Part shown: positions 4,821 through 60,124 of the stretch, one piece after another
Layout: each line of letters begins with the position of its first letter
How positions within the stretch are numbered: the first letter of the stretch is position 1
Assembly: GCF_003056345.1 (NCBI RefSeq)
Contig: NZ_PYWB01000004.1
Coordinates: forward strand, 186,001-250,000
DNA: 64,000 bases
Direction: 5' to 3'
Source of the DNA: Devosia submarina
Lineage (GTDB): Bacteria > Pseudomonadota > Alphaproteobacteria > Rhizobiales > Devosiaceae
Translations under genes and position numbers: made by a program
Notes under the pieces: model-generated
Databases searched by the model: none
What the model was told of the DNA's origin: nothing
The model's input: only the letters and a program-made list of their open reading frames with translations

Positions 4821-5584
4821 TGCGTTATTCCGCCTGTGTCGACATGCTGTTTGTTCGCGAGACACAGAGCATTGCCGAGCGCATTCATTTGGCCAGGGCC
4901 GCCGGCATGGACGCGGTGGAGTTCTGGCTTTGGAGCAACAAGGATCTCGACGCCATCGAGGATGCGCTCGGGGCGACCGGGGTCAAGCTTGCCGCCATTG
5001 TAGCCGAACCTTTTGCCGAACTCACCCGCACCACTGACCATGACCGTTTTCTTGAGGGCCTAGCCTCTAGCCTTCAGGTCGCCAAGCGCCTCGGTGCCCC
5101 CGTGATGATCGCCCAGGCAGGTCCTGAACTCAGCAATGTTCCACGTGAAACGCAGCACGATGCTGTGGTGGAGGCGATGCGGCGGTCAGCCCTCGTGCTG
5201 GAAGGCTCGGGCGTGCGGCTGGCGCTGGAGCCGCTCAATACGCTGGTTGATCACCAAGGCTATTATCTCGCATCCACCAGCGAGGGGCTCGACATCATTG
5301 ATGAGGTCGGCCGGCCCGAGATCGCGCTGCTTTATGATCTCTACCATTCCATGGTGATGGGAGAACAAACGGCGGAGGTCCTGGCGGGGCGCGTCGACCG
5401 CATTGCCCATATCCATGTTGCCGACCATCCCAGGCGAAACCAGCCAGGAACAGGGGAACTGCCAATTCCACAAAGCCTCGATTGGCTCCGGGCAAAAGGC
5501 TATAACGGCTATACGGGGCTTGAATTCCGCCCCACTGGTCTGACTGCCGATGCGCTGGCTGAAACGCGCGCGATCTTCGGCTAG
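4820..5584 (+). CDS. Hydroxypyruvate-isomerase-like sugar phosphate isomerase/epimerase
   Basis: 254 residues of an AP-endonuclease-2-type TIM barrel. Family marks: ALEPLNTLVDHQGYYL with a metal-ligand Glu, LLYDLYHSMVM with the conserved Asp and His, HIHVADHPRRNQPG, and a final TGLEFRP with a Glu ligand. This pattern fits hydroxypyruvate isomerase (Hyi) and its paralogues, which interconvert hydroxypyruvate and tartronate semialdehyde. Exact substrate unproven. The ATG at 4820 overlaps the pyrF stop (TGATG), so translation is probably coupled. The 3' end overlaps the convergent kinase gene by 4 bases. Confidence 0.78.
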   Translation: MRYSACVDMLFVRETQSIAERIHLARAAGMDAVEFWLWSNKDLDAIEDALGATGVKLAAIVAEPFAELTRTTDHDRFLEGLASSLQVAKRLGAPVMIAQAGPELSNVPRETQHDAVVEAMRRSALVLEGSGVRLALEPLNTLVDHQGYYLASTSEGLDIIDEVGRPEIALLYDLYHSMVMGEQTAEVLAGRVDRIAHIHVADHPRRNQPGTGELPIPQSLDWLRAKGYNGYTGLEFRPTGLTADALAETRAIFG

Positions 5585-6585
5585 CCCACCAAACCGTGCT
5601 GCTTGGTGAGATCGTGCAGATCAAGCTGCGGGCGGGCGCCGATATGGGAGATCACTTCGCTGGCCGCCAGGCACCCTGTTTGAAGGGCTGATTGCAGCGA
5701 CTGGCCGCGTGCCATGCCAAGCAAAAAGCCCGAGGCGAACAAATCGCCTGCGCCAGTGGCGTCCACGACCCCATCGACGGGGAAAGCTGGAACCGACACG
5801 ATCTCCCCATTGTGGATCGCCATGGCGCCGTCGGCACCCATGGTGATGGCAGCCAGTTCAGCATCCTTGGCAATTTCGCGCACGGCTTCGCCGAGGTCTT
5901 CCGTCTGGTAAAGTGATTTAAGCTCATGCACATTGGCGAAAACATAGTCGATGGTTTTGGACCGGATGAGGTCCAGGAACTCGGCGCGGTAACGATCAAC
6001 GCAGAACGGGTCCGACAAGGTAAAGGCGGCAGCCCGCTCGCTCTTGTGCGCATAATGCGCGGCAAGGACAAAGGCTTTCTTGGACTCCACGGGATCCCAC
6101 AAAAAACCTTCCATATAAGTGATGGCGGCGGACCCAATCTCGTCTGGCTTGATGTCTTGCTCAGTCAGCTGGTGGCAAGCGCCCAAATAAGTGTTCATGG
6201 TGCGCTCTCCGCTTTCGCTGAGAAAAATCATCGAGCGGGCAGTCAGGGCGCCATTCTTGAGGCGCGACGTGGAATAATGAACCCCGAGGGCGCCAAGGTC
6301 TGCTTCAAACACATCGCCCAGCGGATCATCAGCCACCTTGCCCACGAACGCCGCCCGACCTCCGAGCGAAGCAACGCCGGCGGCTGTATTCGCCGCACTG
6401 CCGCCCGAGATCTGCTGCCGGCTCAATGGCATCTTGCTGTAGAGCTCTTCTGCCCGCTCGGTATCGATCAGGTGCATGATGCCTTCGGTCATGCCCTCAC
6501 GTTCGATAAACCCGGGCTCCACGGGCGCGATGATGTCGACGATCGCATTGCCGATGGTCAGAACGTCGAAGCGGGTTTCGGTCAT
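5581..6585 (-). CDS. PfkB-family kinase, adenosine kinase type
   Basis: 334 residues of a ribokinase-like carbohydrate kinase. It has SGGSAANTAAGVASLGG (about 60-76, first PfkB signature) and DATGAGDLFASGFLLG (about 279-294, second signature, with the catalytic-base Asp in GAGD). The N-terminal FDVLTIGNAIVDIIAPV and the NTYLGACHQL segment are typical of the alphaproteobacterial adenosine kinase group, so purine nucleoside salvage is likely. Other PfkB sugar kinases remain possible. It is monocistronic and convergent with the isomerase gene. Confidence 0.82.
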   Translation of the reverse strand: MTETRFDVLTIGNAIVDIIAPVEPGFIEREGMTEGIMHLIDTERAEELYSKMPLSRQQISGGSAANTAAGVASLGGRAAFVGKVADDPLGDVFEADLGALGVHYSTSRLKNGALTARSMIFLSESGERTMNTYLGACHQLTEQDIKPDEIGSAAITYMEGFLWDPVESKKAFVLAAHYAHKSERAAAFTLSDPFCVDRYRAEFLDLIRSKTIDYVFANVHELKSLYQTEDLGEAVREIAKDAELAAITMGADGAMAIHNGEIVSVPAFPVDGVVDATGAGDLFASGFLLGMARGQSLQSALQTGCLAASEVISHIGARPQLDLHDLTKQHGLVG

Positions 6586-6735
6586 GTGCGGGTCCGGACG
6601 GAGGGAGAAAAGCCGAGTGCGGGTTTAGAGGAACTGCCCCTTTGGCGCAACGACCAAGGCAGTCGAGCCGCCTTGACGCCTCAGCCCCTTCCGGCGACTT
6701 TGCCGCATGCATTCTGATTCCCCGACAGAGACGCC

Positions 6736-8349
6736 ATGACCTGGCTGGCCGAAACCGCCATGTTGAGCCACGGCTGGCGCCGCTTTCTCCTTCTGCTGAT
6801 TGCAGGCGCAATTGCGGGCTTGTCGGTGCCCCCGCTCTTTGTTCTGCCAGCACTGTTCATCAGCTTCCCGTTTTGGGTCTGGTGCCTTGATGGTGCCGAG
6901 CCGGGTCGCGGCTGGCGGCGCTTTTTCGGACAGGCCTTTGCCATAGGCTTTGCTTTTGGCTGGGGCTATTTCACCGTCGCCTTTCATTGGCTTGGCGCCG
7001 CGTTTTTCGTAGACGGCGGGATCATGATTGCGCTCATGCCGTTCGCCATTCTGGCGCTGGCAGCGTTGATCGCCTTCTTTTGGGGCCTTGGCAGCGCTCT
7101 TGCGCATCTGTTCTGGAGCCACGGGCCATGGCGCATTGTGACGCTGGGGACCTTCATCACCATTGCCGAATGGGCGCGTGGCCACGTGCTCACGGGCTTT
7201 CCGTTCGACCTTTTAGGTTATGCGCTGACCCCAACTGACGAGATGATGCAGATCACCTCGGTAATTGGTGTTTACGGGCTGACCTTTGTTGCAGCGCTGC
7301 TGGCGCTGACACCCGCCTTGATCTGGCCAGCTAGCAACAGGAGCCTCAGCAGGCGCCTGTTGCCGTTCTTTCTGGCGATCCTGGTCATCGCCGTGCAACT
7401 TGGTTACGGCTTCAATCGCTTGGCTGGAACAATCTCCACCGAGCGCACCGATATTGCAATGCGCCTTGTCCAGCCCATGGTGTACGAGCATTCGGATTGG
7501 GGCAATGTTGATCCGGCTGCCTTGATCGACAAGCTGCTGATGATCTCCGAAATGCGGATGGACCCAGCCGATCAGGGGCTGGCTGATATCACCCACCTTG
7601 TCTGGCCGGAATCCAGCCTGCCGTTCTTTTTGTCCTCCTACCCCGATGCGCTGGCCCGCATTGCCCGGCTCCTGCCGGACACAGCAACCTTGCTGGCCGG
7701 CATTCCGCGCCAGCAGTTTGAGCCAGGGCAAACGCAAAGTGCAGGCCCGCCGTTCAATGCCCTGCTGGCCATCGATACCAGCGGCGAGATCATTGCGTCC
7801 TACGACAAGTCTCATCTGGTACCCTTTGGCGAATTCCTGCCATTCAGCCAGTTCTTTTCCCGGCTCGGCATCAAGCAGTTCGTGCCCGGGGCCGAGGGCT
7901 GGGCGCATGGCGATGCCCGACGTCGCCTTATGAGCTTGCCCAGTACTCCGGCCTTTCTGGCGCTGATTTGCTACGAGATTCTGTTTTCGGGCGATCTGGG
8001 TGACACAGCAGGCGCGCAGTTCATTCTCAACATCACCAATGATGCCTGGTTCGACCATTCTATTGGACCGGCGCAGCATGCCCATCATGCTCGAGTACGG
8101 GCTGTGGAGGAGGGCCTGAGCTTGATCCGCGCCGCCAATACTGGCCTGACCTTCACCACCGATCCGCTTGGGCGGGTCACGGCCGGTATTGCCCCGCTGC
8201 AAATGGCAGTGCTCGATGTCCGGCCGCATGAACGGCTCCCCGCCACAGTTTTTTCCCAGCTGCGTCATTGGCCTTTGTTGATCGCCATCATTGCAGGCCT
8301 CCTGATATCCCTTGTGGTTTCCCGCCGCGGACGCCGCGCCAGAGTATAG
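6736..8349 (+). CDS. lnt: Apolipoprotein N-acyltransferase
   Basis: 537 residues. The N-terminal ~210 residues carry several hydrophobic spans, followed by a periplasmic carbon-nitrogen hydrolase (nitrilase-like) domain and a last membrane helix at about 507-530. The catalytic triad is visible: Glu292 in WPESS, Lys358 in YDKSH and Cys412 in ICYE. The enzyme adds the third acyl chain to lipoproteins in the inner membrane. The start is the ATG at 6736. corC normally precedes it in relatives; here it heads the metK side alone. Confidence 0.94.
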   Translation: MTWLAETAMLSHGWRRFLLLLIAGAIAGLSVPPLFVLPALFISFPFWVWCLDGAEPGRGWRRFFGQAFAIGFAFGWGYFTVAFHWLGAAFFVDGGIMIALMPFAILALAALIAFFWGLGSALAHLFWSHGPWRIVTLGTFITIAEWARGHVLTGFPFDLLGYALTPTDEMMQITSVIGVYGLTFVAALLALTPALIWPASNRSLSRRLLPFFLAILVIAVQLGYGFNRLAGTISTERTDIAMRLVQPMVYEHSDWGNVDPAALIDKLLMISEMRMDPADQGLADITHLVWPESSLPFFLSSYPDALARIARLLPDTATLLAGIPRQQFEPGQTQSAGPPFNALLAIDTSGEIIASYDKSHLVPFGEFLPFSQFFSRLGIKQFVPGAEGWAHGDARRRLMSLPSTPAFLALICYEILFSGDLGDTAGAQFILNITNDAWFDHSIGPAQHAHHARVRAVEEGLSLIRAANTGLTFTTDPLGRVTAGIAPLQMAVLDVRPHERLPATVFSQLRHWPLLIAIIAGLLISLVVSRRGRRARV

Positions 8350-8382
8350 GAAGCGAAATCGTGCTCCAAAACGGCAAGGTGG

Positions 8383-8490
8383 GATATCAAGCTTTCTTTA
8401 TATCCGCCTTGACCAGAGGGTGAGCCGATGTCACAAACCCCTCGAAACAGCTTCCGAATGGCGTGTTTCGGATAGTTCAGGGGATTTTTC
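8383..8490 (+). promoter_or_regulatory. Structured metK leader, candidate SAM-sensing riboswitch
   Basis: Two hairpins fill the leader. The first pairs GGATAT with ATATCC around 8384-8405. The second pairs CGAAACA (8443-8449) with TGTTTCG (8464-8470) around the 14-nt loop GCTTCCGAATGGCG. AGGGGA (8479-8484), the ribosome-binding site of metK, can pair with CCCCT (8438-8442), or as a pseudoknot with TTCC of the loop. From memory, the SAM/SAH riboswitch found before metK in Rhodobacterales has a loop of the form ACGGCUUCCUGGCG and a pseudoknot with the ribosome-binding site; the resemblance is suggestive but not exact. Confidence 0.4.
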
Positions 8491-9747
8491 TTGGCACGGT
8501 CGTCCTATCTCTTTACCTCGGAATCGGTTTCCGAGGGTCATCCAGACAAGGTTTGCGACCGGATCAGCGATGAGATCGTCGATCTGGTTTTCAAGGAAGC
8601 CAAGAAAACCGGCATGGACCCTTCCCAGGTCCGCATCGCCTGCGAGACCCTGGCAACCACGAACCGTGTCGTGATTGCCGGCGAAGTGCGCGTGCCCGAA
8701 ACCTTGCTCAAAAAAGGCAAGGACGGCACCGTCCTGCTCGATAGCTCCGGCAATCCGGTGGTCAATCCATCCAAGTTCAAATCTGCTGCGCGCAAGGCCA
8801 TCCGCGCCATCGGCTATGAGCAAGATGGTTTTCACTGGAAGACCTGCCGTATCGATGTGCTGCTGCATGGGCAGTCGGCCGATATTGCTCAGGGCGTGGA
8901 TGAAAGCGGCAACAAGGATGTAGGTGCGGGCGATCAAGGCATTATGTTCGGCTATGCGAGCCGGGAAACGCCTGAATTGCTGCCGGCGCCAATCTATTAT
9001 GCCCATAAGATCCTTGAAACCCTGACCACGGCACGCAAGGCCAATAATGGCCCGGCCGGGAAGCTGGGACCTGATGCCAAGTCGCAGGTGACGGTGCGCT
9101 ACGAGGACGGTCAGCCAATCGGCGTGACCCAGATTGTGCTGTCAACCCAGCACCTTGATCCTTCGCTCACCTCGGCCGATGTCCGCACCATTGTGGAACC
9201 CCATGTGCGGGCTGCCCTTCCTGACGGCTGGATTAGCGATGACACGGTCTGGCACGTCAATCCGACGGGCAAGTTCGTGGTTGGCGGGCCTGATGGCGAT
9301 GCTGGCTTGACCGGTCGTAAGATCATTGTAGACACTTATGGCGGTGCGGCGCCCCATGGTGGCGGCGCGTTTTCAGGCAAGGACCCGACCAAGGTGGATC
9401 GTTCGGCCGCCTACGCCGCGCGCTATCTCGCCAAGAACGTGGTTGCTGCAGGTCTTGCTGATCGCGCAACCATCCAGCTCAGCTATGCCATTGGCGTAGC
9501 GCAGCCCCTTTCGATCTATGTGGACCTTCATGGCACCGGCAAGGTGGACGAGGCTGTTGTGGAAGGGGCTCTGGCCAAGGTGATGGATCTGACGCCGCGT
9601 GGCATTCGCACCCATCTTGATCTCAACAAGCCCATCTATGCCAAAACCGCGGCCTACGGGCATTTTGGTCGCAAGGCGGGACGGGACGGCAGTTTTTCCT
9701 GGGAAAAGACTGATCTGGTCGGCGCGCTCAAGGCGGCCGTAAAGTAA
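8491..9747 (+). CDS. metK: S-adenosylmethionine synthetase
   Basis: 418 residues, slightly longer than the E. coli enzyme, with insertions in the first third. Motifs in order: [20 protein letters not shown] (N-terminal ATP site), [12 protein letters not shown], and [19 protein letters not shown] (P-loop-like glycine-rich signature). It makes AdoMet from methionine and ATP. The start is TTG at 8491, six bases after an AGGGGA ribosome-binding site that can be sequestered by the leader structure. trmB, an AdoMet-using methyltransferase, follows 12 bases downstream and is probably co-transcribed. Confidence 0.96.
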
Positions 9748-9759
9748 AGCAGCGAGCTG

Positions 9760-10464
9760 ATGACCGATCACCAACTGCCCAAGACCCGCGCGGGCGAGCC
9801 GCGGGCTTTCTTTGGCCGCCGCTCCGGCAAAAAGCTGCATGGCGGCCAGCAGGCTGTTTTCGACGCAACCCTGCCGGCACTTGAAATCAGGGTTGAGGGC
9901 ACGTTTGATCCACGCGCTTTGTTTCCCCAAGCCGAAAAGATCATTGTGGAGATCGGCTATGGCGGTGGGGAGCATCTAGCGCTGGAGGCCGGGCGCCACC
10001 CGCAGATCGGTTACATCGGCTGCGAAGTGTTTACCGGCGGCATTGGCAAGATGGTTCAGGCCATTGCTGCGCAGGATCTGCGCAATGTGCGCCTGTTTAC
10101 CGACGATGCGTTCAAGCTGCTCCTGGCACTTCCGGATGCCTCGCTGGACGAGGTTTACCTGTTGTATCCCGATCCCTGGCCCAAGACACGGCACCATAAA
10201 CGCCGCTTCGTGTCTCCGACCACGCTGGCCGAACTGGCTCGCGTGATCCGGCCGGGTGGCCGTTTTCATTTTGCAACCGACATCGAAGATTATGCAAACT
10301 GGACACTGGCACATATTGTGCGCACACCCTCCTTCTCCTTTATGCCGGATAAGCCGGGCGGCTGGCATGAGCCTTACCCCGGTTGGGAGCCGACGCGTTA
10401 TGAGCAAAAGGCACGGCGCGAAGGGCGGTTGGTAAGCTTTTACTTCTCGTTTACCCGACAGTGA
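9760..10464 (+). CDS. trmB: tRNA (guanine-N7-)-methyltransferase
   Basis: 234 residues. Marks: EIGYGGGEHL (AdoMet-binding motif I), YIGCEVFTGGIGKMV, and LYPDPWPKTRHHKRRF, the conserved catalytic and substrate-binding segment of TrmB. TPTRYEQKARREG, near the C-terminus (written here EPTRYEQKARREG), is the T-x-x-E-type tail motif. It makes m7G46 in tRNA. The ATG at 9760 follows metK closely. Confidence 0.95.
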   Translation: MTDHQLPKTRAGEPRAFFGRRSGKKLHGGQQAVFDATLPALEIRVEGTFDPRALFPQAEKIIVEIGYGGGEHLALEAGRHPQIGYIGCEVFTGGIGKMVQAIAAQDLRNVRLFTDDAFKLLLALPDASLDEVYLLYPDPWPKTRHHKRRFVSPTTLAELARVIRPGGRFHFATDIEDYANWTLAHIVRTPSFSFMPDKPGGWHEPYPGWEPTRYEQKARREGRLVSFYFSFTRQ

Positions 10465-10575
10465 GTTGCGCCTTACGCGCGCGCCACATCTTCCCGTTTG
10501 AGTTAAGCTGGGTATTGGTAAGCCGTATCGGCGCTCCCATATCGGCTTTTCCATCAACTTCTTCGGGGCAAGCCA

Positions 10576-10965
10576 ATGCCAAGGGCGTCCATCAATGGCG
10601 ATAGCGAAGCTGACAACGATGTGCTTCGGATACGCCCGGGCAAATGGACACTGACGGTGGTGACACTGCTCCGCCACAACAGGCTGCGCTTCAATGAAAT
10701 CAAGCGCGAAGCCGGCATTGCTCAAAAGACCCTGACTCTTACCTTGCGCGAACTGGAGCGCGATGGGTTTGTCACGCGCACCATGTTCGCGACCATTCCG
10801 CCGAGGGTTGATTATGAACTGACGCAGCTGGGGCGGGAATTGCTGGAGATGGCGGACAATATGCGCCTGTTTGCAGCGGTGATTGCCGACCGGGTGCTCG
10901 CTGCACGTCAGCAATTCGACGATGCGGGTGGAGAGCCGGTGATCCGGCTTAGCCATCCCAGATAG
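10576..10965 (+). CDS. HxlR-family winged-helix transcriptional regulator
   Basis: 129 residues. The DUF24/HxlR core is clear: GKWTLTVVTLLRHNRLRFNEIKREAGIAQ, then KTLTLTLRELERDGFVTRT and PPRVDYELTQLGREL. The N-terminal cysteine used for redox or electrophile sensing in many HxlR proteins is absent here; the N-terminus is polar and acidic instead. Such regulators usually control a neighbouring oxidoreductase, but the flanking genes are trmB and a small secreted protein, so the target is unknown. Confidence 0.85.
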   Translation: MPRASINGDSEADNDVLRIRPGKWTLTVVTLLRHNRLRFNEIKREAGIAQKTLTLTLRELERDGFVTRTMFATIPPRVDYELTQLGRELLEMADNMRLFAAVIADRVLAARQQFDDAGGEPVIRLSHPR

Positions 10966-10973
10966 GGAGTACG

Positions 10974-10999
10974 GGCGCCGTCACCATAGCGACGGCGCC
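10974..10999. terminator. GC-rich hairpin between convergent genes
   Basis: GGCGCCGTC and GACGGCGCC form a perfect 9-bp stem with an 8-base loop, just after the hxlR stop and facing the convergent gene at 11014. There is no U-run, so it is a probable but weak terminator or 3'-end stabiliser for both strands. Confidence 0.5.
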
Positions 11000-11013
11000 G
11001 TGATCGGCAGAGC

Positions 11014-11313
11014 CTAGAGCGCGACCTGCTCCAGCGTGCCGGGCGCAAAGAACTGCATGACCTGACGGCCGTCCTCGAGCGTCACAAAGGCGCGAACCAG
11101 CCCACCCCAGTTTTCAACGGCATTGGCGTTGACGCCCTTGTCGCGCAGGCGGGACAGGATGTTCTGGGCAGCGGTGTCGTAGCTGCTCTGGTCGGATTCT
11201 TCACTGTTGAAGTCGTCGAGGCCTATTGCCGAATTGGGCTCGGCAAAGGCGGGAGCAGCTACGCCAGCAAGTGCGGCAGCGGCAACAAGGGCGATAACAG
11301 TGTTCTTGATCAT
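11014..11313 (-). CDS. Small secreted protein (99 aa)
   Basis: The chosen ATG at 11313 gives a classical signal peptide (MIKNTVIALVAAAALAGVAA, cleavage after PAFA at about residue 24) and a mature part of about 75 residues with no cysteines. The N-terminal mature region is acidic (DDFNSEESDQSSYD); the rest looks globular. AGGA lies about 12 bases upstream. A longer in-frame reading up to 11748 exists but lacks a signal peptide and is rejected. Function not recognised; periplasmic location is inferred. Confidence 0.75.
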   Translation of the reverse strand: MIKNTVIALVAAAALAGVAAPAFAEPNSAIGLDDFNSEESDQSSYDTAAQNILSRLRDKGVNANAVENWGGLVRAFVTLEDGRQVMQFFAPGTLEQVAL

Positions 11314-11760
11314 TTGAGGTGTTCCTTTCGTTTGAACACCCTGGAAATGGGGCGGCCGCAAACGGGCACAAGACGCGATCTTGCGCTTGGCAGGGGTTGA
11401 ACTCTGCCAGTGGCCCCCAAGGGTTTTCTCAAGGAAATCGAGGGACTTAAACGTGACCGGGTTTCCTTCGTGACACCGCGTTTCCTTTGAGTGACAATCC
11501 GGCCGGGCAGGGCTTTGCACCCCCGTGGACCGCTGCCCGGATGGGTTTGGAAAGAACACAAACGGCCTTGATGAACCGACTGGATAGGCATTTGGAGGCA
11601 TTGATTTGCTGTCCCGTCGGTCGTCTATTTTTTGCAGAAAAAAATGCGATAATTTTGATCCGACGCTTGAAGGCGTGGAGTGAAGCCTTTCGGCTGGGGC
11701 AATTTCGTGCCGCACAACCTTCGCGCCATCTTGCCGTGCGATGTGCAATCAGCAGTGCAC
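11314..11760. other. Non-coding stretch upstream of the rimP promoter
   Basis: No convincing gene is seen. Two near-identical units, GTTTCCTTCGTGACA (11461-11475) and GTTTCCTTTGAGTGACA (11480-11496), lie in tandem and may be a regulator site. An inverted repeat GTGCA/TGCAC sits at 11743-11760, abutting the promoter. A run of A/T-rich DNA (about 11629-11660) contrasts with the GC-rich surroundings. Confidence 0.4.
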
Positions 11761-11789
11761 TTGCGGCTCAGCGCCGGGCGCGCTATATA
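11761..11789 (+). promoter_or_regulatory. Candidate housekeeping promoter of rimP-nusA-infB
   Basis: TTGCGG (11761-11766) as -35 and TATATA (11784-11789) as -10, 17 bases apart, would start transcription near 11796. That leaves a leader of about 20 bases before the terminator-like hairpin at 11817. Prediction by eye only. Confidence 0.45.
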
Positions 11790-11816
11790 GAGGCCAACAT
11801 CTCTAGCGATTTTGCA

Positions 11817-11847
11817 GAGTGGGAGCCTTCCGGCCCCGCTCTTTTTT
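11817..11847 (+). terminator. Intrinsic terminator in the rimP-nusA leader (candidate attenuator)
   Basis: GAGTGGG-A-GCC (11817-11827) pairs with GGCCCCGCTC (11832-11841) around a TTCC loop: ten pairs with a single bulged A, followed directly by six T residues (11842-11847). It ends only 5-17 bases before the possible rimP starts and lies downstream of the likely promoter. It may therefore attenuate the operon rather than end a preceding gene; no gene precedes it on this strand. Confidence 0.6.
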
Positions 11848-11864
11848 ATTACATGAAGGGACCG

Positions 11865-12527
11865 ATGAGCTTCGATCTCACCGAACAGCGCTTCATCAAG
11901 GAAACGGGCCTCGAGGCTCGCGTCGCCCGAATTGTCGAGCCCGTGGCCAATGGCCTGGGCTTTTCCCTGGTGCGGGTCAAGATCACCCAGGAAAACGGCT
12001 GCACGCTCCAGATCATGGCGGAAGACGAACACGGCCGCTTCACCATCGTCAACTGCGAGGCCCTGAGCAAGGATCTCTCGCCGGTTCTTGATGTGGAAGA
12101 CCCGATCGATCGTGAATACCATCTGGAAGTATCTTCTCCAGGGATCGACCGCCCGCTGGTGCGCCGCCGCGATTTCCAAGGCTATATCGGCCATGAGGCC
12201 AAGATCGAGCTTGGCGACATGATCAATGGGCGCAAGCGCTTCCGCGGCTTCATCAAGGCTGTGGAAGACGATGCTGTCATCATCACCCTGCCTGACGCAC
12301 CTGCCGGCACCGATCCCGATCACCGCCTGCCTTTCCGTAATCTCGCGGAAGCCAAGCTCTTGATGACCGACGCCCTGATGGAAAAGGCACGCCTCGACCA
12401 GGAAGCTCATCCCATCGACGATGATGAGACCGAAACGGTCGAATACGCCGATGCAGACATTGACGATGAAGACGATATTTCCCCCGAGGACGCGGCGGGA
12501 ACCAAGCCGACCAAGGAGACCCACTAA
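11865..12527 (+). CDS. rimP: Ribosome maturation factor RimP
   Basis: 220 residues. The RimP core is clear: N-terminal KH-like domain (GLEARVARIVEPVANGLGFSLVRVKI), the conserved YHLEVSSPGIDRPL segment (about 85-98), and an SH3-like C-terminal domain with IKAVEDDAVIITL. A ~45-residue acidic tail extends beyond the usual family length. RimP acts in 30S maturation. ATG 11865 is preceded by AAGGGA; ATG 11853, four codons upstream in frame, is an alternative. nusA starts directly after the stop. Confidence 0.94.
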   Translation: MSFDLTEQRFIKETGLEARVARIVEPVANGLGFSLVRVKITQENGCTLQIMAEDEHGRFTIVNCEALSKDLSPVLDVEDPIDREYHLEVSSPGIDRPLVRRRDFQGYIGHEAKIELGDMINGRKRFRGFIKAVEDDAVIITLPDAPAGTDPDHRLPFRNLAEAKLLMTDALMEKARLDQEAHPIDDDETETVEYADADIDDEDDISPEDAAGTKPTKETH

Positions 12528-14129
12528 ATGGCCGTTAGCGCGAACCGCCTCGAGCTGTTGCAGATCGCAGATGCCGTCGCCCGCGAAAAGTCGATCGACC
12601 GCATGGTCGTGATCGAGGCGATGCAGGACGCCATGGAAAAGGCGGCCAAGGGTCGCTATGGCGCCGAAACCGAGATCAAGGTCGAGATCAATCCGCGTTC
12701 GGGCGAAACCCGCATGTGGCGCCTTCTTGAGATTGTCGAGAATGTCGAGGAGCCCAGCCGCCAGGTTGATCTCAAGCGCGCGCAGAGCAAGTCGCCCGAG
12801 GCGAAGATCGGCGATTTTCTGACCGAGCCTCTGCCGCCTATGGAATTCGGCCGTATCGCTGCCCAGTCTGCCAAGCAGGTGATTGTGCAAAAGGTGCGCG
12901 ATGCCGAGCGCGAGCGCATGTATGACGAATATTTCAACCGCATCGGCGAGATCGTCAACGGCACGGTCAAGCGCGTCGAATATGGCAATGTCATCGTCGA
13001 TCTGGGTCGTGGCGAAGCCATTATCCGCCGCGACGAGCTGATCCCGCGTGAAATGTTCCGCTATGGCGATCGCGTGCGCGCCTATGTCTATGATGTGCGC
13101 CGCGAACAGCGCGGGCCGCAGATTTTCCTGTCGCGCACCCATCCGCAATTCATGGCCAAGCTCTTCATGCAGGAAGTGCCCGAAATCTATGATGGCGTGA
13201 TCACCATTCGCTCGATTGCCCGTGATCCGGGCTCGCGCGCCAAGATCGCCGTGACATCCTCCGATAGCTCGATCGATCCCGTCGGCGCCTGCGTTGGTAT
13301 GCGTGGTTCGCGCGTGCAGGCCGTGGTTGCTGAGCTGCAGGGCGAAAAGATCGACATCATCCCTTGGACCGACTCCATTGCCGATCTCGTTGTTTCCGCC
13401 TTGCAGCCTGCCGATGTCGCCAAGGTGGTGCTCGACGAGCAAGCCGAGCGCATCGAAGTCGTAGTGCCGGACGAGCAGCTCTCGCTTGCCATTGGTCGTC
13501 GCGGCCAGAACGTACGCCTTGCTTCGCAGCTGATCGGCTGGGATATCGACATCCTGACCGAGCAGGAAGAATCCGAGCGGCGCCAGAAAGAATTCACCGA
13601 ACGGTCCAGCTTGTTCATGCAGGCCCTTGACGTTGACGAGATGGTTGCCCAACTATTGGCTTCCGAAGGGTTTTCCTCGGTCGAGGAACTGGCCTATATT
13701 GACGCCAACGAAATTGCCTCTATCGAAGGATTCGACGAGGAAACCGCTGGCGAAATCCAGAACCGTGCCGCCGAATATTTGGCAGCAATCGACCGGGCCC
13801 ATGACGAAGAGCGCAAGAAGCTCGGCGTGGAGGATGAACTCTATGAAATCCCTGGCCTGACCGCCGCCATGCTGGTGGCTCTGGGCAAGGAGGACATCAA
13901 GTCCGTGGAAGACTTTGCGGGCTGTGCCGCCGATGATCTGATCGGCTGGAGCGAACGCAAGGACGGGGAAACCAAGCGCTTTGAAGGCACCTTCAAGGAC
14001 TTCCCCATTTCTCGCGAGGAAGCCGAAGACATGATCATGCAGGCCCGCCTCAGGGCCGGCTGGATCAACGAGGACGAGCTGGCGGCCGAACAGGGTGACG
14101 CAGCAGCCATCGACGAGGCAACGGCTTAG
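12528..14129 (+). CDS. nusA: Transcription termination/antitermination protein NusA
   Basis: 533 residues. Domains in order: N-terminal RNA-polymerase-binding domain (1-125), S1 (about 132-200), KH1/KH2 (about 225-345, with [12 protein letters not shown] and [15 protein letters not shown]), then two C-terminal acidic helix-hairpin-helix repeats (about 350-520). It begins at the ATG immediately after the rimP stop codon. NusA modulates pausing, termination and rRNA antitermination; in E. coli it also regulates its own operon, which is relevant to the hairpin upstream of rimP. Confidence 0.97.
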
Positions 14130-14153
14130 GCCGTTTCGGAAGCGAGGGACCAG

Positions 14154-14855
14154 ATGGCCCGGCGCGAAGAAACAAGTCGGATGTGCGCTCTGACACGGGC
14201 TGAAAAGCCCGTGGCGGAGCTGATCCGTTTCGTGCTGGGGCCTGACGGCGTCGTGGTCCCGGACACGGAAGCCAAGGCGGAAGGGCGCGGTGTGTGGCTC
14301 AGCCTCAACCGTGAACTGGTCGCCGAGGCGGTCAAGAAGAAGGTATTTGCGCGCAGCCTCAAGTGCGAGGTAAAGCTGCCCGGGGATTTGCCCGGTCTCA
14401 CGCAAATGCGGCTCGAGCAGCGCTTTTTGGGCGCGCTGGGCATGGCGCGCAAGGCGGGCCAGCTGACATTCGGCGCCACCAAGGTGCGCAGCTTGATCGA
14501 GAATGGCGGGCTGCTGGCGCTGATCACGGCGACGGATGCAGCCGAGGACGGGCGCAGCAAGATGGCGGGAGCCTTGAGGGCCCTCCATTATGCCGCTGCC
14601 GAACAAGGAATTGACGGGTTCAACGTGCCTCATTTCGAATTGCTCACTTCCGAGCAAATGGGTTTGGCACTTGGACTGGAAAATGTGATACATGCTGCCC
14701 TAACGAATGGGGCAGCAGCCCAATCGGCAGTGGAAAAGGCGCGTAGACTGGCACTTTTCCTCGCCAAGCCAACGGAAATGGACACCGGCCGCGCAGCGGT
14801 TGACGGTGATCTTTTGCCCGAGGAACAGGACGAAAGACGCGAGATACATGGCTGA
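14154..14855 (+). CDS. ylxR: YlxR RNA-binding protein fused to an L7Ae-like domain
   Basis: 233 residues. The DUF448/YlxR part (1-85) has [24 protein letters not shown] and GRGVWLSLN, matching the family's R-x-C...R...P...LIRFV...GRGAW pattern. A second domain (about 95-190) with [21 protein letters not shown] resembles L7Ae/L30e-type RNA-binding proteins. The two-domain form is common in alphaproteobacteria. It lies 24 bases after nusA, and its last 8 bases overlap the infB start. Role: nucleoid- or RNA-associated factor of the nusA-infB operon. Confidence 0.88.
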
Positions 14856-17685
14856 TAACGACGACAAGCGCACCGAAGACACGGGCGCGAAGAAGACGCT
14901 GACACTGAAGGGCGGCCCAGGCCTGGGCAACCGTCCGGGCATGTCGCGCGGTCCTTCCCGCTCGACGGTGGTTGTCGAAAAGCGCACAAGGCTGGTTCCA
15001 AAGCCCAATGCGCCGATGAACACGCCGCAACGACCGCCTGCTGGTGGGCAAGGCAGCGGCCGTCCACAAAGCGGCCGACCGGCTCCGGCTGCTCGCGCGC
15101 CACTAGGCCTGTCCCCGGCCGAAGCCGAGGCCCGCCGCCAGGCGCTGGCCCTCGCTGGCGCTCGCGCTGCTGAAGACAACCAGCGCTTTGCAGCTGAAGA
15201 AGCCCGTCGCATCGAGGAAGATGCGCGTCGTCGCCAGATCCGGGAGGAAGCCGAACGCGCCGAGCGCGAGGCTGCCGCAGCGGCTGCTGCCGCCGCCGCC
15301 CCCGCTGCGCCCGAGCCTGCCGCAGAGCCCACGCCGCCAGCCGCTGAAGCTGCGCCGGCTGCTGCGCCAACCCCTGCCGCACCCGTGATCCCCGCCTCGC
15401 AGCGCAATCCTGGACCATCCAGCGTGCGCGTCGTGGCCGGCCGTCCTGGCCAGCCGCCACGTCCCCCACGCGCCGAGCGGCCCAGCAATACGCGCCCCGA
15501 AAGCGAGCGTGGTGCCAATGCCTATATCAAGCCCGGTGCTGCCGGTGCGCGTCCGGGTGCGCCCGGCGCCCGCCCATCCGGCACAGCTGGCCGCCCCGCC
15601 GGTGAACGTCGTCCGGCCGGTGCCGGCATGGCGCCGATCGGCAATGTGCCACCCGCACCACCCAGCGAAGCCGATGGCCGCAAGATCCGCTCGGGCGCGC
15701 CCCAGGTCCGCCCGACCACGGCCGCAGAACTTGAAAATGCCCGCCGCGCATCCCGCGCCACGCCGGAACGGCCCACGCGCCGTGCCGGTGAGGAAGCCCT
15801 TGGCCGCAGCCGCCTGACCGTTGCCAGCGCAACCACCGAAAACGATCGCGATCGTGGTCCGTCGCTGGCCGCCATGCGCCGTCGTCGCGACAAGAAGATG
15901 GGCCGCAACCAGCAGGATGCGCCAAAGCTGAGCCGTGAAGTGACCATTCCTGAAGCGATCACGGTGCAGGAATTGGCCAACCGCATGGCCGAGCGCTCGG
16001 TAACCGTGATCAAGCTGCTGATGCAGCAGGGTCAGATGGCCACGATCAACGACGTTCTTGACGCCGATACGGCTGAACTGATCGCGACCGAACTGGGCCA
16101 CACCGTTAAGCGTGTGTCGGAAGCCGACGTGGAAGAGGGCTTGTTCGATATTGCATCGGACGACAAGGCCGAGGATCTGACCGATCGTGCGCCTGTTGTG
16201 ACCATCATGGGTCACGTTGACCACGGCAAGACCTCCTTGCTCGACGCGATCCGCGAAGCCAATGTGGTGTCGGGTGAAGCCGGTGGCATCACCCAGCATA
16301 TCGGCGCCTACCAGGTCGAAAAGAACGGCAGCAAGATCACCTTCCTTGATACCCCCGGCCACGAGGCGTTCACCGCCATGCGTGCCCGCGGCGCCCAGGC
16401 GACCGATATTGCGGTTCTGGTGGTGGCAGCCGATGACGGCGTGATGCCGCAGACGATCGAATCCATCCGCCACGCCAAGGCAGCGGGTGTTCCGATCATC
16501 GTGGCCATCAACAAGATGGACAAGCCCGAAGCCAACCCGACCCGCGTTCGCACCGAGCTCTTGCAACACGAAGTGTTCGTGGAATCCATGGGCGGCGACG
16601 TGCTGGACGTGGAAGTTTCGGCCAAGACCCAGGCCGGCCTCGACAAGCTGCTCGAAACCATCCTGCTGCAGGCCGAAGTGCTTGAACTCAAGGTAGCCCG
16701 CGACGGGCGCGCCGAGGGTCTGGTCATCGAAGCCAAGCTCGATCGCGGTCGCGGTGCCGTCGCGACGGTTCTGGTGCAGCGCGGTACACTGCGCGTCGGT
16801 GACATCCTGGTTGCCGGCACCGAGTTTGCCCGTGTGCGTGCCCTGATCAACGACAAGGGCGAGCAGGTCAAGGAAGCCGGTCCCTCTATTCCGGTGGAAG
16901 TGCTGGGCTTTACCGGCGTGCCGAGCGCGGGCGACCGCTTCTCGGTGGTCGAGACCGAAGCGCGTGCTCGTGAAGTTACCGAATACCGTCAGCGCGCAAT
17001 CCGCGAGAAGACGGCAGGCGGCGGAGCCACGAGCCTTGAGCAGATGATGAATCAGCTCAAGGTCGCCGGCATCGCCAAGTTCCCGCTGATCATCAAGGGT
17101 GACGTGCAGGGTTCGGTGGAGGCCATTGTGGCTTCGCTCAACAAGCTCTCGACCGACGAAGTGTCGGCGCAGATCCTTATGAGCGCGGTTGGCGGCATCA
17201 CCGAAAGCGACGTGACCCTGGCTTCGGCATCGAACGCCATCGTCATCGGCTTCAACGTGCGTGCCAACAAGCAGGCGACGGATCTGGCCACCCGCGACGG
17301 CATCGAAATCCGATACTACAACATCATCTACGACCTCGTGGATGACGTGAAGAACGCGATGAGCGGCTTGCTTAAGCCGGAACGCCGCGAAACCTTTATC
17401 GGCAACGCGGAAATCCTCGAAGTCTTCCAGATCACCAAGGTCGGCAAGGTTGCCGGCTGCCGGATCACCGAAGGCATGGTGGAGCGTGGCTCGGGCGTGC
17501 GGCTTATCCGCGACAACGTTGTTATCCACGAAGGCAAGCTCAAGACGCTCAAGCGCTTCAAGGACGAGGTCAAGGAAGTTCAGACGGGTCAAGAATGCGG
17601 CATGGCCTTTGAAAACTACGAAGACATGCGCGCTGGCGACGTTATCGAATGCTTCCGCGTCGAAACGGTCCAGCGCACGCTGTAA
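14848..17685 (+). CDS. infB: Translation initiation factor IF-2
   Basis: 945 residues. A long low-complexity N-terminus (Ala, Pro, Arg, Glu rich, including an Ala tract near 147-155) precedes the IF2-N helix bundle (about 360-415) and the G domain: GHVDHGKT at about 455-462, DTPGHEAF at about 501, NKMDKP at about 555. Domains II-IV reach the C-terminus. It recruits initiator tRNA to the 30S subunit. The start is ATG 14848 inside the ylxR end; longer in-frame readings lie in ylxR. rbfA, the usual next gene, is 42 kb away; a strong terminator follows instead. Confidence 0.97.
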
Positions 17686-17706
17686 CCGTCGAGATCATAG
17701 ACGAGC

Positions 17707-17741
17707 AAAAGGGCGCGGGGATTTCTCCCGGCGCCCTTTTT
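17707..17741. terminator. Strong bidirectional intrinsic terminator after infB
   Basis: AAAAGGGCGC (17707-17716) pairs with GCGCCCTTTT (17731-17740), extended by GGG/CCC, with T-runs on both strands. It separates infB from the convergent DUF1236 gene and shows that the operon ends here rather than running on into rbfA. Confidence 0.9.
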
Positions 17742-17758
17742 CATAGCCGCTTGGCCGC

Positions 17759-18412
17759 TTAGTTCAGCTGGACGATTACGCGGGTCTGGGTATCGACCAA
17801 GGCTGGACGGTCGCCGACATAGACATAAGAATAGCTGGAGTCTGGAACGCGAACGAGTTCAACGCTTTCCGGAACTACATAGCCAACTGTCACATCGCCT
17901 TCGAGCTCGACTGGATCGATCGGATTGCTGGTGACGTAGTCGGCTGAAGTCTGCGGCACGAGATAGCCGGGGGACTGCACAAAGGCGCGCGACTCGAGAT
18001 CCACGATCCAGACGCGATCATTGGCATAGACATAGCCGTAAGAATCATCGCCCTCGATCGGGTAGATGGTGACATCGGACGGAACCACAAAGCCAACATC
18101 GACGCTGTCGCTGAGGTAGATGGGTTCAACCGGCTGCGCCATAGCGTATTCAACGCTGGAGGCCTGAACGCCGGCGCCTGCACCAAGGGTTGCCCCGGCA
18201 AAGCCGCCGATGATCGCGCCGATCGGGCCGCCAACAACGGCGCCTACCGACGCGCCCACTGCGCCGCCGCTGGCACCGCCAACAAGCGCACCTTCTTCGG
18301 CGTCCTGTTCAGCAGCGGATTCAACACCCACCACCCGGTCCTGGGCCATTGCCGGCAGGCTTGCGGCGGCGAGCGAAATTGCGGCCACGGAGGCCATGAG
18401 GATCTTTTTCAT
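17759..18412 (-). CDS. Secreted DUF1236-type protein with glycine-zipper segment
   Basis: 217 residues. A signal peptide (about 1-23, ending PAMAQ) is followed by a Gly/Ala-rich stretch (about 42-80, GGASGGAVGASVGAVVGG) that resembles a glycine zipper able to insert into or associate with membrane. Two repeats then follow with VGFVVP/VGYVVP ... YGYVYANDRVWIVD/YSYVYVGDRPALVD, the DUF1236 pattern, the second ending TRVIVQLN. A periplasmic or envelope role is inferred; biochemical function unknown. Confidence 0.8.
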   Translation of the reverse strand: MKKILMASVAAISLAAASLPAMAQDRVVGVESAAEQDAEEGALVGGASGGAVGASVGAVVGGPIGAIIGGFAGATLGAGAGVQASSVEYAMAQPVEPIYLSDSVDVGFVVPSDVTIYPIEGDDSYGYVYANDRVWIVDLESRAFVQSPGYLVPQTSADYVTSNPIDPVELEGDVTVGYVVPESVELVRVPDSSYSYVYVGDRPALVDTQTRVIVQLN

Positions 18413-18536
18413 TGTTCTTGTCCTTTAGTGGAGTGGCGAGCCACTCATTGTGCGGGCAGCGCATGTCGCAAAGACCTGCGCCCATTGTTCCGCCCCGTGC
18501 CAACAAACGGAGGACAAGCCCGTTCGTTCCGAAGCG

Positions 18537-19016
18537 CTAGAGCAGCCGCTCGATGGCCGGCGCAAGACTTTCCGGCTCCACGCCCGGGGCGAAGCGCTCC
18601 ACCACATGACCATCCCGGCCCAGCAGGAACTTGGCAAAGTTCCAGCTGATGTCCTCGCTTTCAGCGCCAGGCGCTGATCGCTTGAGCCAGGTATAGAGCG
18701 GATGCTCACCCGGACCATTCACCTCGATCTTGCTGAACAGGGGAAAGGAAACCTCATAGGAAAGGGAGCAGAACCGAGCGATCTCTGCGGCACTTCCTGG
18801 TTCCTGTTCTGCGAACTGATTGCAGGGAAAACCAAGAACAACAAAACCCCGGTCGCCAAAGCGCCTATAAAGCGCCTCGAGCCCCTCATATTGTGGCGTC
18901 AGCCCGCATTTGCTCGCGACATTGACCACCAAGACTACTTTGCCGAGATAGTCGGCCAGCGGCTGCGTTGTTCCATCCAGCAATTGTGGGCTGAAATCGC
19001 CGAGTGTCATGACCAT
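18537..19016 (-). CDS. Glutathione peroxidase family protein
   Basis: 159 residues of the cysteine-type thioredoxin-fold peroxidase. The catalytic tetrad is visible: Cys37 in ASKCGLT, Gln67 in GFPCNQF, and Trp125-Asn126 in ISWNFAKFLL. It reduces hydroperoxides; bacterial Cys-GPx proteins often use thioredoxin rather than glutathione. The start is ATG 19016; the ATG two codons later (19010) is equally possible. Cytoplasmic, no signal peptide. Confidence 0.92.
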   Translation of the reverse strand: MVMTLGDFSPQLLDGTTQPLADYLGKVVLVVNVASKCGLTPQYEGLEALYRRFGDRGFVVLGFPCNQFAEQEPGSAAEIARFCSLSYEVSFPLFSKIEVNGPGEHPLYTWLKRSAPGAESEDISWNFAKFLLGRDGHVVERFAPGVEPESLAPAIERLL

Positions 19017-19231
19017 GATCGCTCCTGCCCGGAATAGTGCTGAACGTTTCTAGCACAGGCCTGGCAAGGGGGCAAAAAGGGGCGCCATCGAAATGGCAAA
19101 GCATCCTTCTGGCAGCGAGGACAAGCTGCTGCCTGCGACAATCAGGCGCCAAGGCTACGTAGTTCAACTGCTATACGCCCCGTAGTTTATACAGGTAAGT
19201 TCAAGCCCGGGGACGCAATGCTGGATTGTCC

Positions 19232-19513
19232 ATGATTGCCCACTTTTGCTACGAGCGCATACCTCCGCCAGACTGTATTTCCGTTGAGCTGATCAGCGGG
19301 CGGAGCGGAGCGCTTGGGCTGGTGAATCTGCCCCCGCAAGCCTTCCGGCAAATGGAGAGCCTCAGCCCTGCGGCAGCTCGTTCGGGCGATGCCATGTCCT
19401 TGCCCTTTGCCTTGAGCTATGCGGTGCTGGCGGCCTCCATCAGCGGCTGCCAGCTCAGCATTGCCGGCGAAAGAGCGCTCTGGCCTACAAACTGGGGTGC
19501 GCTCATAGACTGA
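19232..19513 (+). CDS. Possible small hypothetical protein
   Basis: An open frame of 93 codons from ATG 19232, in a gap between two minus-strand genes, whose last 11 bases overlap the convergent PAS-LuxR gene. There is no clear ribosome-binding site and no recognised family. The product has a mildly hydrophobic C-terminal half (LPFALSYAVLAASISG). It may be a real lineage-specific gene or a chance reading frame. Confidence 0.4.
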   Translation: MIAHFCYERIPPPDCISVELISGRSGALGLVNLPPQAFRQMESLSPAAARSGDAMSLPFALSYAVLAASISGCQLSIAGERALWPTNWGALID

Positions 19514-20159
19514 TTGCCCGGCTAAGATCGATCTCCCCGAAAATGGCGGCCTTGGCGACCGTTTGCACCCGGTTGGTTGAGCGAAGCTTGCGGGCCGACG
19601 AGTGGATGTGAAATTCCACCGTGCGGGGCGTTATTTCCAGCTTGCCGCCAATTTCCTCGGCCGTAAGGCCTGCCGCGACCCAGGTCAGGACAGCCCGTTC
19701 GCGTCGCGAAAGGATAAAGGGCTTGGATGGCTTGGCATCGGACGTGTCCAATGCGGCGGCAGCCTGCCCCAGGGTGATGGTACCGACATAGCCGATATAG
19801 TGCCCCGCTGCATCAAACAGCGGATTGGAGGTGGCCGGCACAAGCTGGTAGTGCCCGGTTGCCTGCAGGATGCGGTATTCGGTCTGAAACGGGCGCCGTT
19901 CGATCCTCGCGCTGGTGAGGCCGGCAAGGGCCGCTTCCTTGTCATCGGGGTGGATGACGGCGAGCCAGCCATAATGGAGGGCGTGGTCATGGGCCTGGCC
20001 GGTCGTGGCGGTCCATTGCGGGTTCACATAAATGGCGCAGCCATTTTCATTGGCGAGCCAGATCATGTGGGGCACGGGATCAGACAAGAAACGGATCGCC
20101 TGCCTCTCGGGCGTCCAAACTTTTTCCGCCTCAGAATCCACCAGCATGCCCATCTGCAC
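19503..20159 (-). CDS. PAS-domain LuxR-type transcriptional regulator
   Basis: 218 residues. The N-terminal PAS fold (about 20-130) has MIWLANENGCAIYVNPQW and IHPDDKEAALAGL, typical of PAS/PAC sensor domains. A LuxR helix-turn-helix follows (about 148-205): LSRRERAVLTWVAAGLTAEEIGGKL ... TVEFHIHSSARKL. There is no receiver domain, so it senses a ligand or partner directly. Start GTG 20159, with ATGs at 20153 and 20147 as alternatives. Targets unknown. Confidence 0.85.
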   Translation of the reverse strand: MQMGMLVDSEAEKVWTPERQAIRFLSDPVPHMIWLANENGCAIYVNPQWTATTGQAHDHALHYGWLAVIHPDDKEAALAGLTSARIERRPFQTEYRILQATGHYQLVPATSNPLFDAAGHYIGYVGTITLGQAAAALDTSDAKPSKPFILSRRERAVLTWVAAGLTAEEIGGKLEITPRTVEFHIHSSARKLRSTNRVQTVAKAAIFGEIDLSRAISL

Positions 20160-59716: not shown

Positions 59717-60124
59717 ATGAGCAGAGATAACAAGCCAACTGGCCCTTCGCAGCGCATGCTGCGCGTGGGCGAACTGGTCCGCCACGCCCTGGCCGACATG
59801 TTTCAGCGCGGCGACGTCGAGGACGATGCCTTGCATGGCGCCGTCATCACCGTGCCCGAAGTGCGCATGACGCCCGATCTCAAGATCGCCAACGCCTATA
59901 TCATGCCCTTGGGTGGCGAGCATGCTGAGGAAATCGTTGCGGCGCTCAACCGCCACCGCAAGTTCATCCGCGGTCGTGTCGCTCCCCAGATCAACATGAA
60001 ATATGCGCCCGAAGTGCGCTTCTATGTGGACGATACCTTCGCCGAAGCCAGCCGCATCGACTCGCTCCTCCGCTCCGAAAAGGTGCAGCGCGATCTGGCA
60101 GACGACGACGGCGACGACAATTGA
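59717..60124 (+). CDS. rbfA: Ribosome-binding factor A
   Basis: 135 residues, KH-type fold: [45 protein letters not shown], and [31 protein letters not shown]. It acts in late 30S maturation. The stop overlaps the truB start by 4 bases. In relatives it follows infB directly; here they are 42 kb apart. Confidence 0.95.

Follow-up and report, generated by a model that had tools for sequence, protein, structure and literature searches.

The DNA directly ahead of rimP in the window (the whole 64,000-nucleotide stretch of the Devosia submarina genome that was analyzed) probably specifies an RNA leader that attenuates transcription of the rimP-nusA-ylxR-infB operon: a rimP-leader in its alphaproteobacterial form, in which a first hairpin competes with the terminator and feedback by NusA is the likely signal. 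RNA polymerase would start near position 11796 and make hairpin 1 first. The terminator hairpin would form next, its four lowest pairs requiring an AGAG segment (11816-11819) taken from hairpin 1. Were the terminator completed, RNA polymerase would halt at the U-tract, some 50 nt into the transcript; were hairpin 1 to hold, the stem beside the U-tract would stay incomplete and transcription would read through into rimP-nusA-infB. High NusA would most likely favor the terminator, and a plentiful supply of its own product would thereby lower expression of the operon. We infer the start site, the termination, the competition as the deciding step and NusA as the signal; for termination and for NusA as the effector the basis is published work on Bacillus and Streptococcus, and by that analogy NusA feedback at the Devosia leader is plausible. 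The elements concerned are the following:

11014-11313, reverse strand: open reading frame of 99 amino acids directly upstream of the leader, divergent from rimP
11761-11766, forward strand: -35 element TTGCGG, read directly
11784-11789, forward strand: -10 element TATATA after a 17-nt spacer, read directly
11796, forward strand: predicted transcription start, about ±2 nt, placed 7 nt past the -10 element
11801-11819, forward strand: hairpin 1, candidate antiterminator, from a constrained fold and pairing probability
11816-11842, forward strand: terminator hairpin of 11 pairs with a bulged A at 11824 and the loop TTCC, read directly and from the fold and a covariance model
11842-11847, forward strand: U-tract of six T, the first of which pairs with A 11816, read directly
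11856-11860, forward strand: Shine-Dalgarno-like AAGGG of rimP, read directly, with a putative function
11865-12527, forward strand: rimP (NF000932 RimP equivalog, 228.5 bits, cut-off 185)
12528-14129, forward strand: nusA (TIGR01953 NusA, 443.4 bits, cut-off 253.4)
14154-14855, forward strand: ylxR (PF04296 YlxR, 74.1 bits)
14848-17685, forward strand: infB from its predicted start (IF-2, IF2_N and GTP_EFTU domains)

The ATG at 11865 is the likelier start of rimP, because AAGGG lies just ahead of it and, in the loci listed for comparison, the coding match begins there; an ATG 12 nt further upstream is not general among these. The nearest named relatives of this rimP are from Devosia. The 99-residue protein encoded on the other side of the leader looks secreted, has no NCBIfam or Pfam match, and gives a tblastn match on the reverse strand in 34 of 81 rimP loci. 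Beyond infB comes a reverse-strand open reading frame (17759-18412), and rbfA, which adjoins infB in E. coli, lies in the window at 59753-60070, about 42 kb downstream of the end of infB.

The terminator hairpin reads AGAGTGGG[A]GCC-TTCC-GGCCCCGCTCT, with GGG 11821-11823 paired to CCC 11835-11837, followed by the bulged A and then a G-C pair. The initial annotation had described it as a ten-pair hairpin with six T residues; the hairpin and the six T stand, with the stem amended to 11 pairs and a bulge. The T run stops 5 nt before the ATG at 11853 and 17 nt before that at 11865, just as had been stated. Within the 54-nt leader the hairpin has a folding energy of -20.4 kcal/mol against a mean of -10.9 for shuffled sequences (z = -3.6), and none of 200 shuffles folded as well. 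The exact hairpin pattern is found at one site in the genome of this organism, which likewise yields one strong match to the covariance model (E 5e-12, the next being at E 6); a regulon of such sites was accordingly rejected.

The promoter proposed in the same annotation, TTGCGG-N17-TATATA, is present at 11761-11789. Its gap to the hairpin exists too, and measures 26 nt where about 20 had been given. Both elements escaped a generic scanner run over positions 5000-20000 of the window, which listed neither the rimP promoter nor the leader terminator, and whose totals were not above those of shuffled sequence (promoters 4 vs 3.5, terminators 15 vs 14.8). The promoter was missed because it has 3/6 in the -35 element and the sixth position of its -10 element is not T, while the bulged A probably defeated the stem search and hence hid the terminator. 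A single-sequence scan would have been insufficient as proof here; it is conservation that provides it.

A set of close relatives was assembled by retaining 80 of 132, mostly Devosia, which together with the locus in the window gave 81 rimP loci. A promoter pattern, TTGNNN-N15-19-TA[TC][AG]NN, scored in the 90 nt that precede the hairpin, occurs in all 81, as against 5% of mononucleotide shuffles, and in 76 of them the -10 element ends 23-31 nt before the hairpin's GAG (median 25). The end of the hairpin, an exact GCTCTTTTT, lies at most 140 nt from the rimP start in 79 of the 81, the start being extrapolated where the match began later; the exceptions are L050, which has ACTC, and L077, where the hairpin lacks the T run. 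One locus in the collection (L010) comes from a contig titled Opitutus sp. (JANPZY010000001.1) and yet is Devosia-like: its 68-nt leader segment is the same as that of L011, and the record is therefore probably mislabelled or contaminated.

With the hairpin so near the rimP start, rimP mRNA should carry it. In the window the gap between hairpin and start codon is too short for any promoter, and this lack of room, together with the promoter pattern upstream in every locus, makes a transcript start well 3' of the hairpin unlikely on sequence grounds. That the hairpin instead blocks read-through from upstream genes (trmB and others), without regulating rimP, is very improbable: in some relatives the gap between the end of a trmB match and the leader segment, taken in this measure from near the -10 element, is as short as 15 nt, but a same-strand trmB match was found in only 23 of the 81, its distance ranging from 15 to 1337 nt, a promoter pattern precedes the hairpin in all 81, and the nearest upstream gene in the window is divergent. 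Thus, the hairpin goes with rimP and not with one upstream gene. The original proposal of an attenuator ahead of rimP-nusA-infB is in this respect well supported by sequence conservation; what it had missed is that this kind of attenuator is already published (PMC2965389) and that a competing hairpin lies 5' of the terminator.

The association extends beyond close relatives. Within the order, the covariance model of the hairpin has matches in 143 of the 199 genomes searched (E up to 0.1). Among the best 120 listed matches (E up to 0.006), less 27 with no listed place for rimP, 89 of the remaining 93 share the strand of rimP and precede the RimP domain by 74-421 nt; the other four lie elsewhere. 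In a sample of the class the model matches 28 of 190 genomes at E up to 0.1; for the 27 besides our own, comparison of positions by eye placed the match upstream of rimP in seven and elsewhere in 17, the place of rimP being unlisted in three. Ahead of rimP, a hairpin whose 5' arm contains a G-run, followed by a U-tract (at least 6 T in the next 9 nt), is present in 43 of 50 loci of the order, drawn from 48 families, and in 26 of 30 loci from other Alphaproteobacteria, with GTGG in 42 and 22 of these, respectively; shuffled controls gave 29/1000 and 30/600, i.e. 3-5%. Five of the order loci (L149-L153) had been chosen by their match to the model, and without them the count is 38/45; rimP is beside L150, L151 and L152, and none is found within the fetched stretch of L149 or L153. 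Likewise, five of the other alphaproteobacterial loci (L154-L158) were chosen by match, the remaining 25 being picked from listed genomes, and without the five the count is 21/25. L107, counted as having none, shows a GGGCT...AGCCC hairpin with a T run.

A frequently seen version is AGTGGGC...GCCC with GCT or ACT and T6 after it, and the arm is GTGGGC in 18 of 22 other Alphaproteobacteria and 23 of 41 order loci in which it was found by regular expression. In other classes of the phylum, GGG...CCC followed by T occurs within 330 nt upstream of rimP in 12 of 18 loci. Among the near relatives the lower stem of the terminator is nearly invariant (alignments A1-A3), and shuffle tests were used in place of covariation.

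The other component, hairpin 1, pairs CTCT 11801-11804 with AGAG 11816-11819 and GCG 11806-11808 with TGC 11813-11815. Its AGAG strand is also the base of the 5' arm of the terminator. Hence a mutually exclusive upstream hairpin is present, with four shared bases, and its action as an antiterminator is putative. When only the first part of the RNA is folded, running from the predicted start through the foot of the terminator 5' arm (11796-11819 in the window), the AGAG has a pairing probability of 0.97 against 0.40 for shuffled RNA, with 1.7% of shuffles as high. The same test, applied to 48 of the 50 order loci (L107 and L114 having no arm; the promoter was unassignable in four order loci), gave a mean pairing of the terminator base of 0.70 versus 0.46 with shuffled upstream RNA (p = 4e-9), exceeding 0.5 in 43; for 69 distinct near relatives it was 0.83 versus 0.53, exceeding 0.5 in 62 (p = 2e-12). 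Since the loci share ancestry, these p-values overstate independence. In the 22 of the 30 other alphaproteobacterial loci that were tested there is no significant excess (0.48 versus 0.41, above 0.5 in 12, p = 0.21). The first version of the test, on 34 nt that included promoter DNA, gave a weak result: 54 of the 81 near-relative loci had at least three of the last five bases paired, against a mean shuffle fraction of 0.22, and hairpin 1 was absent from the window's own best fold of that stretch.

The upper part of hairpin 1 varies between families and yet remains paired, e.g. AACGA/TCGTT in L145 and CCGAA/TTCGG in L150. Eight order loci have an arm other than GAG; five of them keep at least three pairs with the upstream RNA, and three (L110, L111 and L133) lose hairpin 1. 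In L106, L110 and L111 hairpin 1 is weak or missing, as it also is, when folded from the assigned start, in L139 and L142, where the 34-nt stretch gives 0.71 and 0.97. A search of the genome for the hairpin 1 and arm pattern, allowing one mismatch, returned the leader and one unlike site, with seven matches in the reversed control; thus, this short pattern is not specific.

Two further candidates for the leader were tried and rejected. A leader-peptide attenuator is disfavored because by reading there is no ATG between 11796 and the hairpin in the window, and loop and spacer lengths vary among relatives. A match to the Rfam L20_leader at 11744-11853 scored a weak 22.8 bits, far short of its 58.7-bit gathering score, and was treated as chance.

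In the window the full terminator is more stable, by 5.0 kcal/mol, than the fold that combines hairpin 1 with a truncated terminator, so that hairpin 1 would need either kinetics or a factor in its favor to win out. Over 41 order loci the mean gap is 5.6 kcal/mol, versus 7.1 with shuffled upstream RNA (p = 3e-5). The thermodynamic preference for the full terminator would suit a leaky, unregulated terminator with a fixed fraction of read-through, with hairpin 1 merely stabilizing the 5' end of the RNA: about 5 nt separate it from the predicted 5' end, and a hairpin in such a position is known to protect RNA. We consider this rather unlikely, given the four-base overlap of the two hairpins and the conserved sequence of the arm. 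The homologous leader is, moreover, described as regulated in B. subtilis (PMC12288461) and proposed to be so in S. agalactiae (PMC4448216), in the passages cited. An attenuator set by competition between the hairpins remains the preferred interpretation.

The hairpin is kept without the U-tract in five of the 50 order loci, each from a different family (L115, L130, L133, L143 and L148); a sixth hairpin-only locus returned by the script, L114, was dropped, its hairpin being different and seemingly inside rimP. Hairpin 1 still folds in L115, L130, L143 and L148, and in L077, which has no U-tract either. Retention of the conserved GTGGG hairpin without a U-tract suggests a role beyond intrinsic termination in those loci, and the five order loci weigh against the attenuator reading. 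It also counts toward an effector other than NusA acting on the same attenuator, be it RimP, some ribosomal protein or a different RNA-binding factor that recognizes GUGGG...CCC, as does the near-invariance of the lower stem, apparently beyond the needs of pairing; the authors of the 2010 study likewise mention RimP (PMC2965389). Against this, NusA is the regulator named in the relevant passages of all three sources (PMC2965389, PMC12288461 and PMC4448216), and binding by RimP or the others is putative; such an effector is unlikely. We retain NusA as the likely signal. More tentatively, and with a good deal of doubt, the rimP leaders of the Hyphomicrobiales might form a two-hairpin switch of about 50 nt sharing four bases, in which the class-wide GUGGG...CCC would be a protein site, for NusA or RimP, that acts even without a U-tract.

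NusA and IF2 are essential, and self-limitation of their operon has been little tested outside Bacillus and E. coli. A leader of about 50 nt yields clear predictions for a few base changes, and it is the competing hairpin and the U-tract losses that merit the attention of specialists. The competing first hairpin may be a new, order-specific feature, judging from sequence comparison; this would suggest that an antiterminator, of which none has been seen in general for the widespread rimP-leader, was gained in this order.

The element in the window lies outside the Rfam family RF01770, the gammaproteobacterial rimP leader: there is no match in the window at the gathering score, none at E up to 5 in 11300-11950, and none in eight alphaproteobacterial loci at E up to 0.1, while 12 non-alphaproteobacterial loci gave one match above the gathering score and four weak ones. 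A literature search returned no paper on an alphaproteobacterial rimP leader among the matches listed, and by word search neither of two surveys of rhizobial RNA (PMC3738593, PMC2873474) mentions nusA, rimP or infB in its main text. Alphaproteobacteria may already figure in the species list of PMC2965389.

Several known systems provide precedents, as described in the cited passages. The E. coli rimP region has several promoters and terminators (PMC6511841), and rimP fusions there go down, not up, in a Rho mutant (PMC7815308). According to a 2025 review, B. subtilis NusA controls its own expression by stimulating termination in its leader (PMC12288461, citing Mondal 2016). The leader of S. agalactiae gbs0413-0418 yields two RNAs, one short and one long, that share a start, with termination mapped 31 nt downstream, and NusA feedback has been proposed for it (PMC4448216). 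Both share with the window the same gene or operon and an intrinsic terminator in the 5' leader, whereas those passages mention no competing 5' hairpin, which the window has. The closest parallel comes from Naville and Gautheret (2010), who found rimP first among the genes most often under predicted attenuation in 302 genomes, with NusA as the best candidate regulator (PMC2965389). Their rimP-leader, as set out in the part cited here, has a terminator 4-130 nt before the start, a G-rich 5' arm, a C-rich 3' arm and a U-stretch, with the stem motif GGGc(...)gCCC and, in several Gammaproteobacteria, an extra tandem hairpin; no antiterminator was seen in its general form. The Devosia leader departs from it in the competing upstream hairpin and in having a bulged or mismatched base and then G-C after GGG/CCC, where the rimP-leader has c-g. 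The likenesses are a terminator before the same gene and within the same range (17 nt), a 5' arm rich in G and a 3' arm rich in C with GGG...CCC, and a U-stretch of six T; the kind of attenuator is itself already known, and by place and anatomy the element in the window belongs to the rimP-leader.
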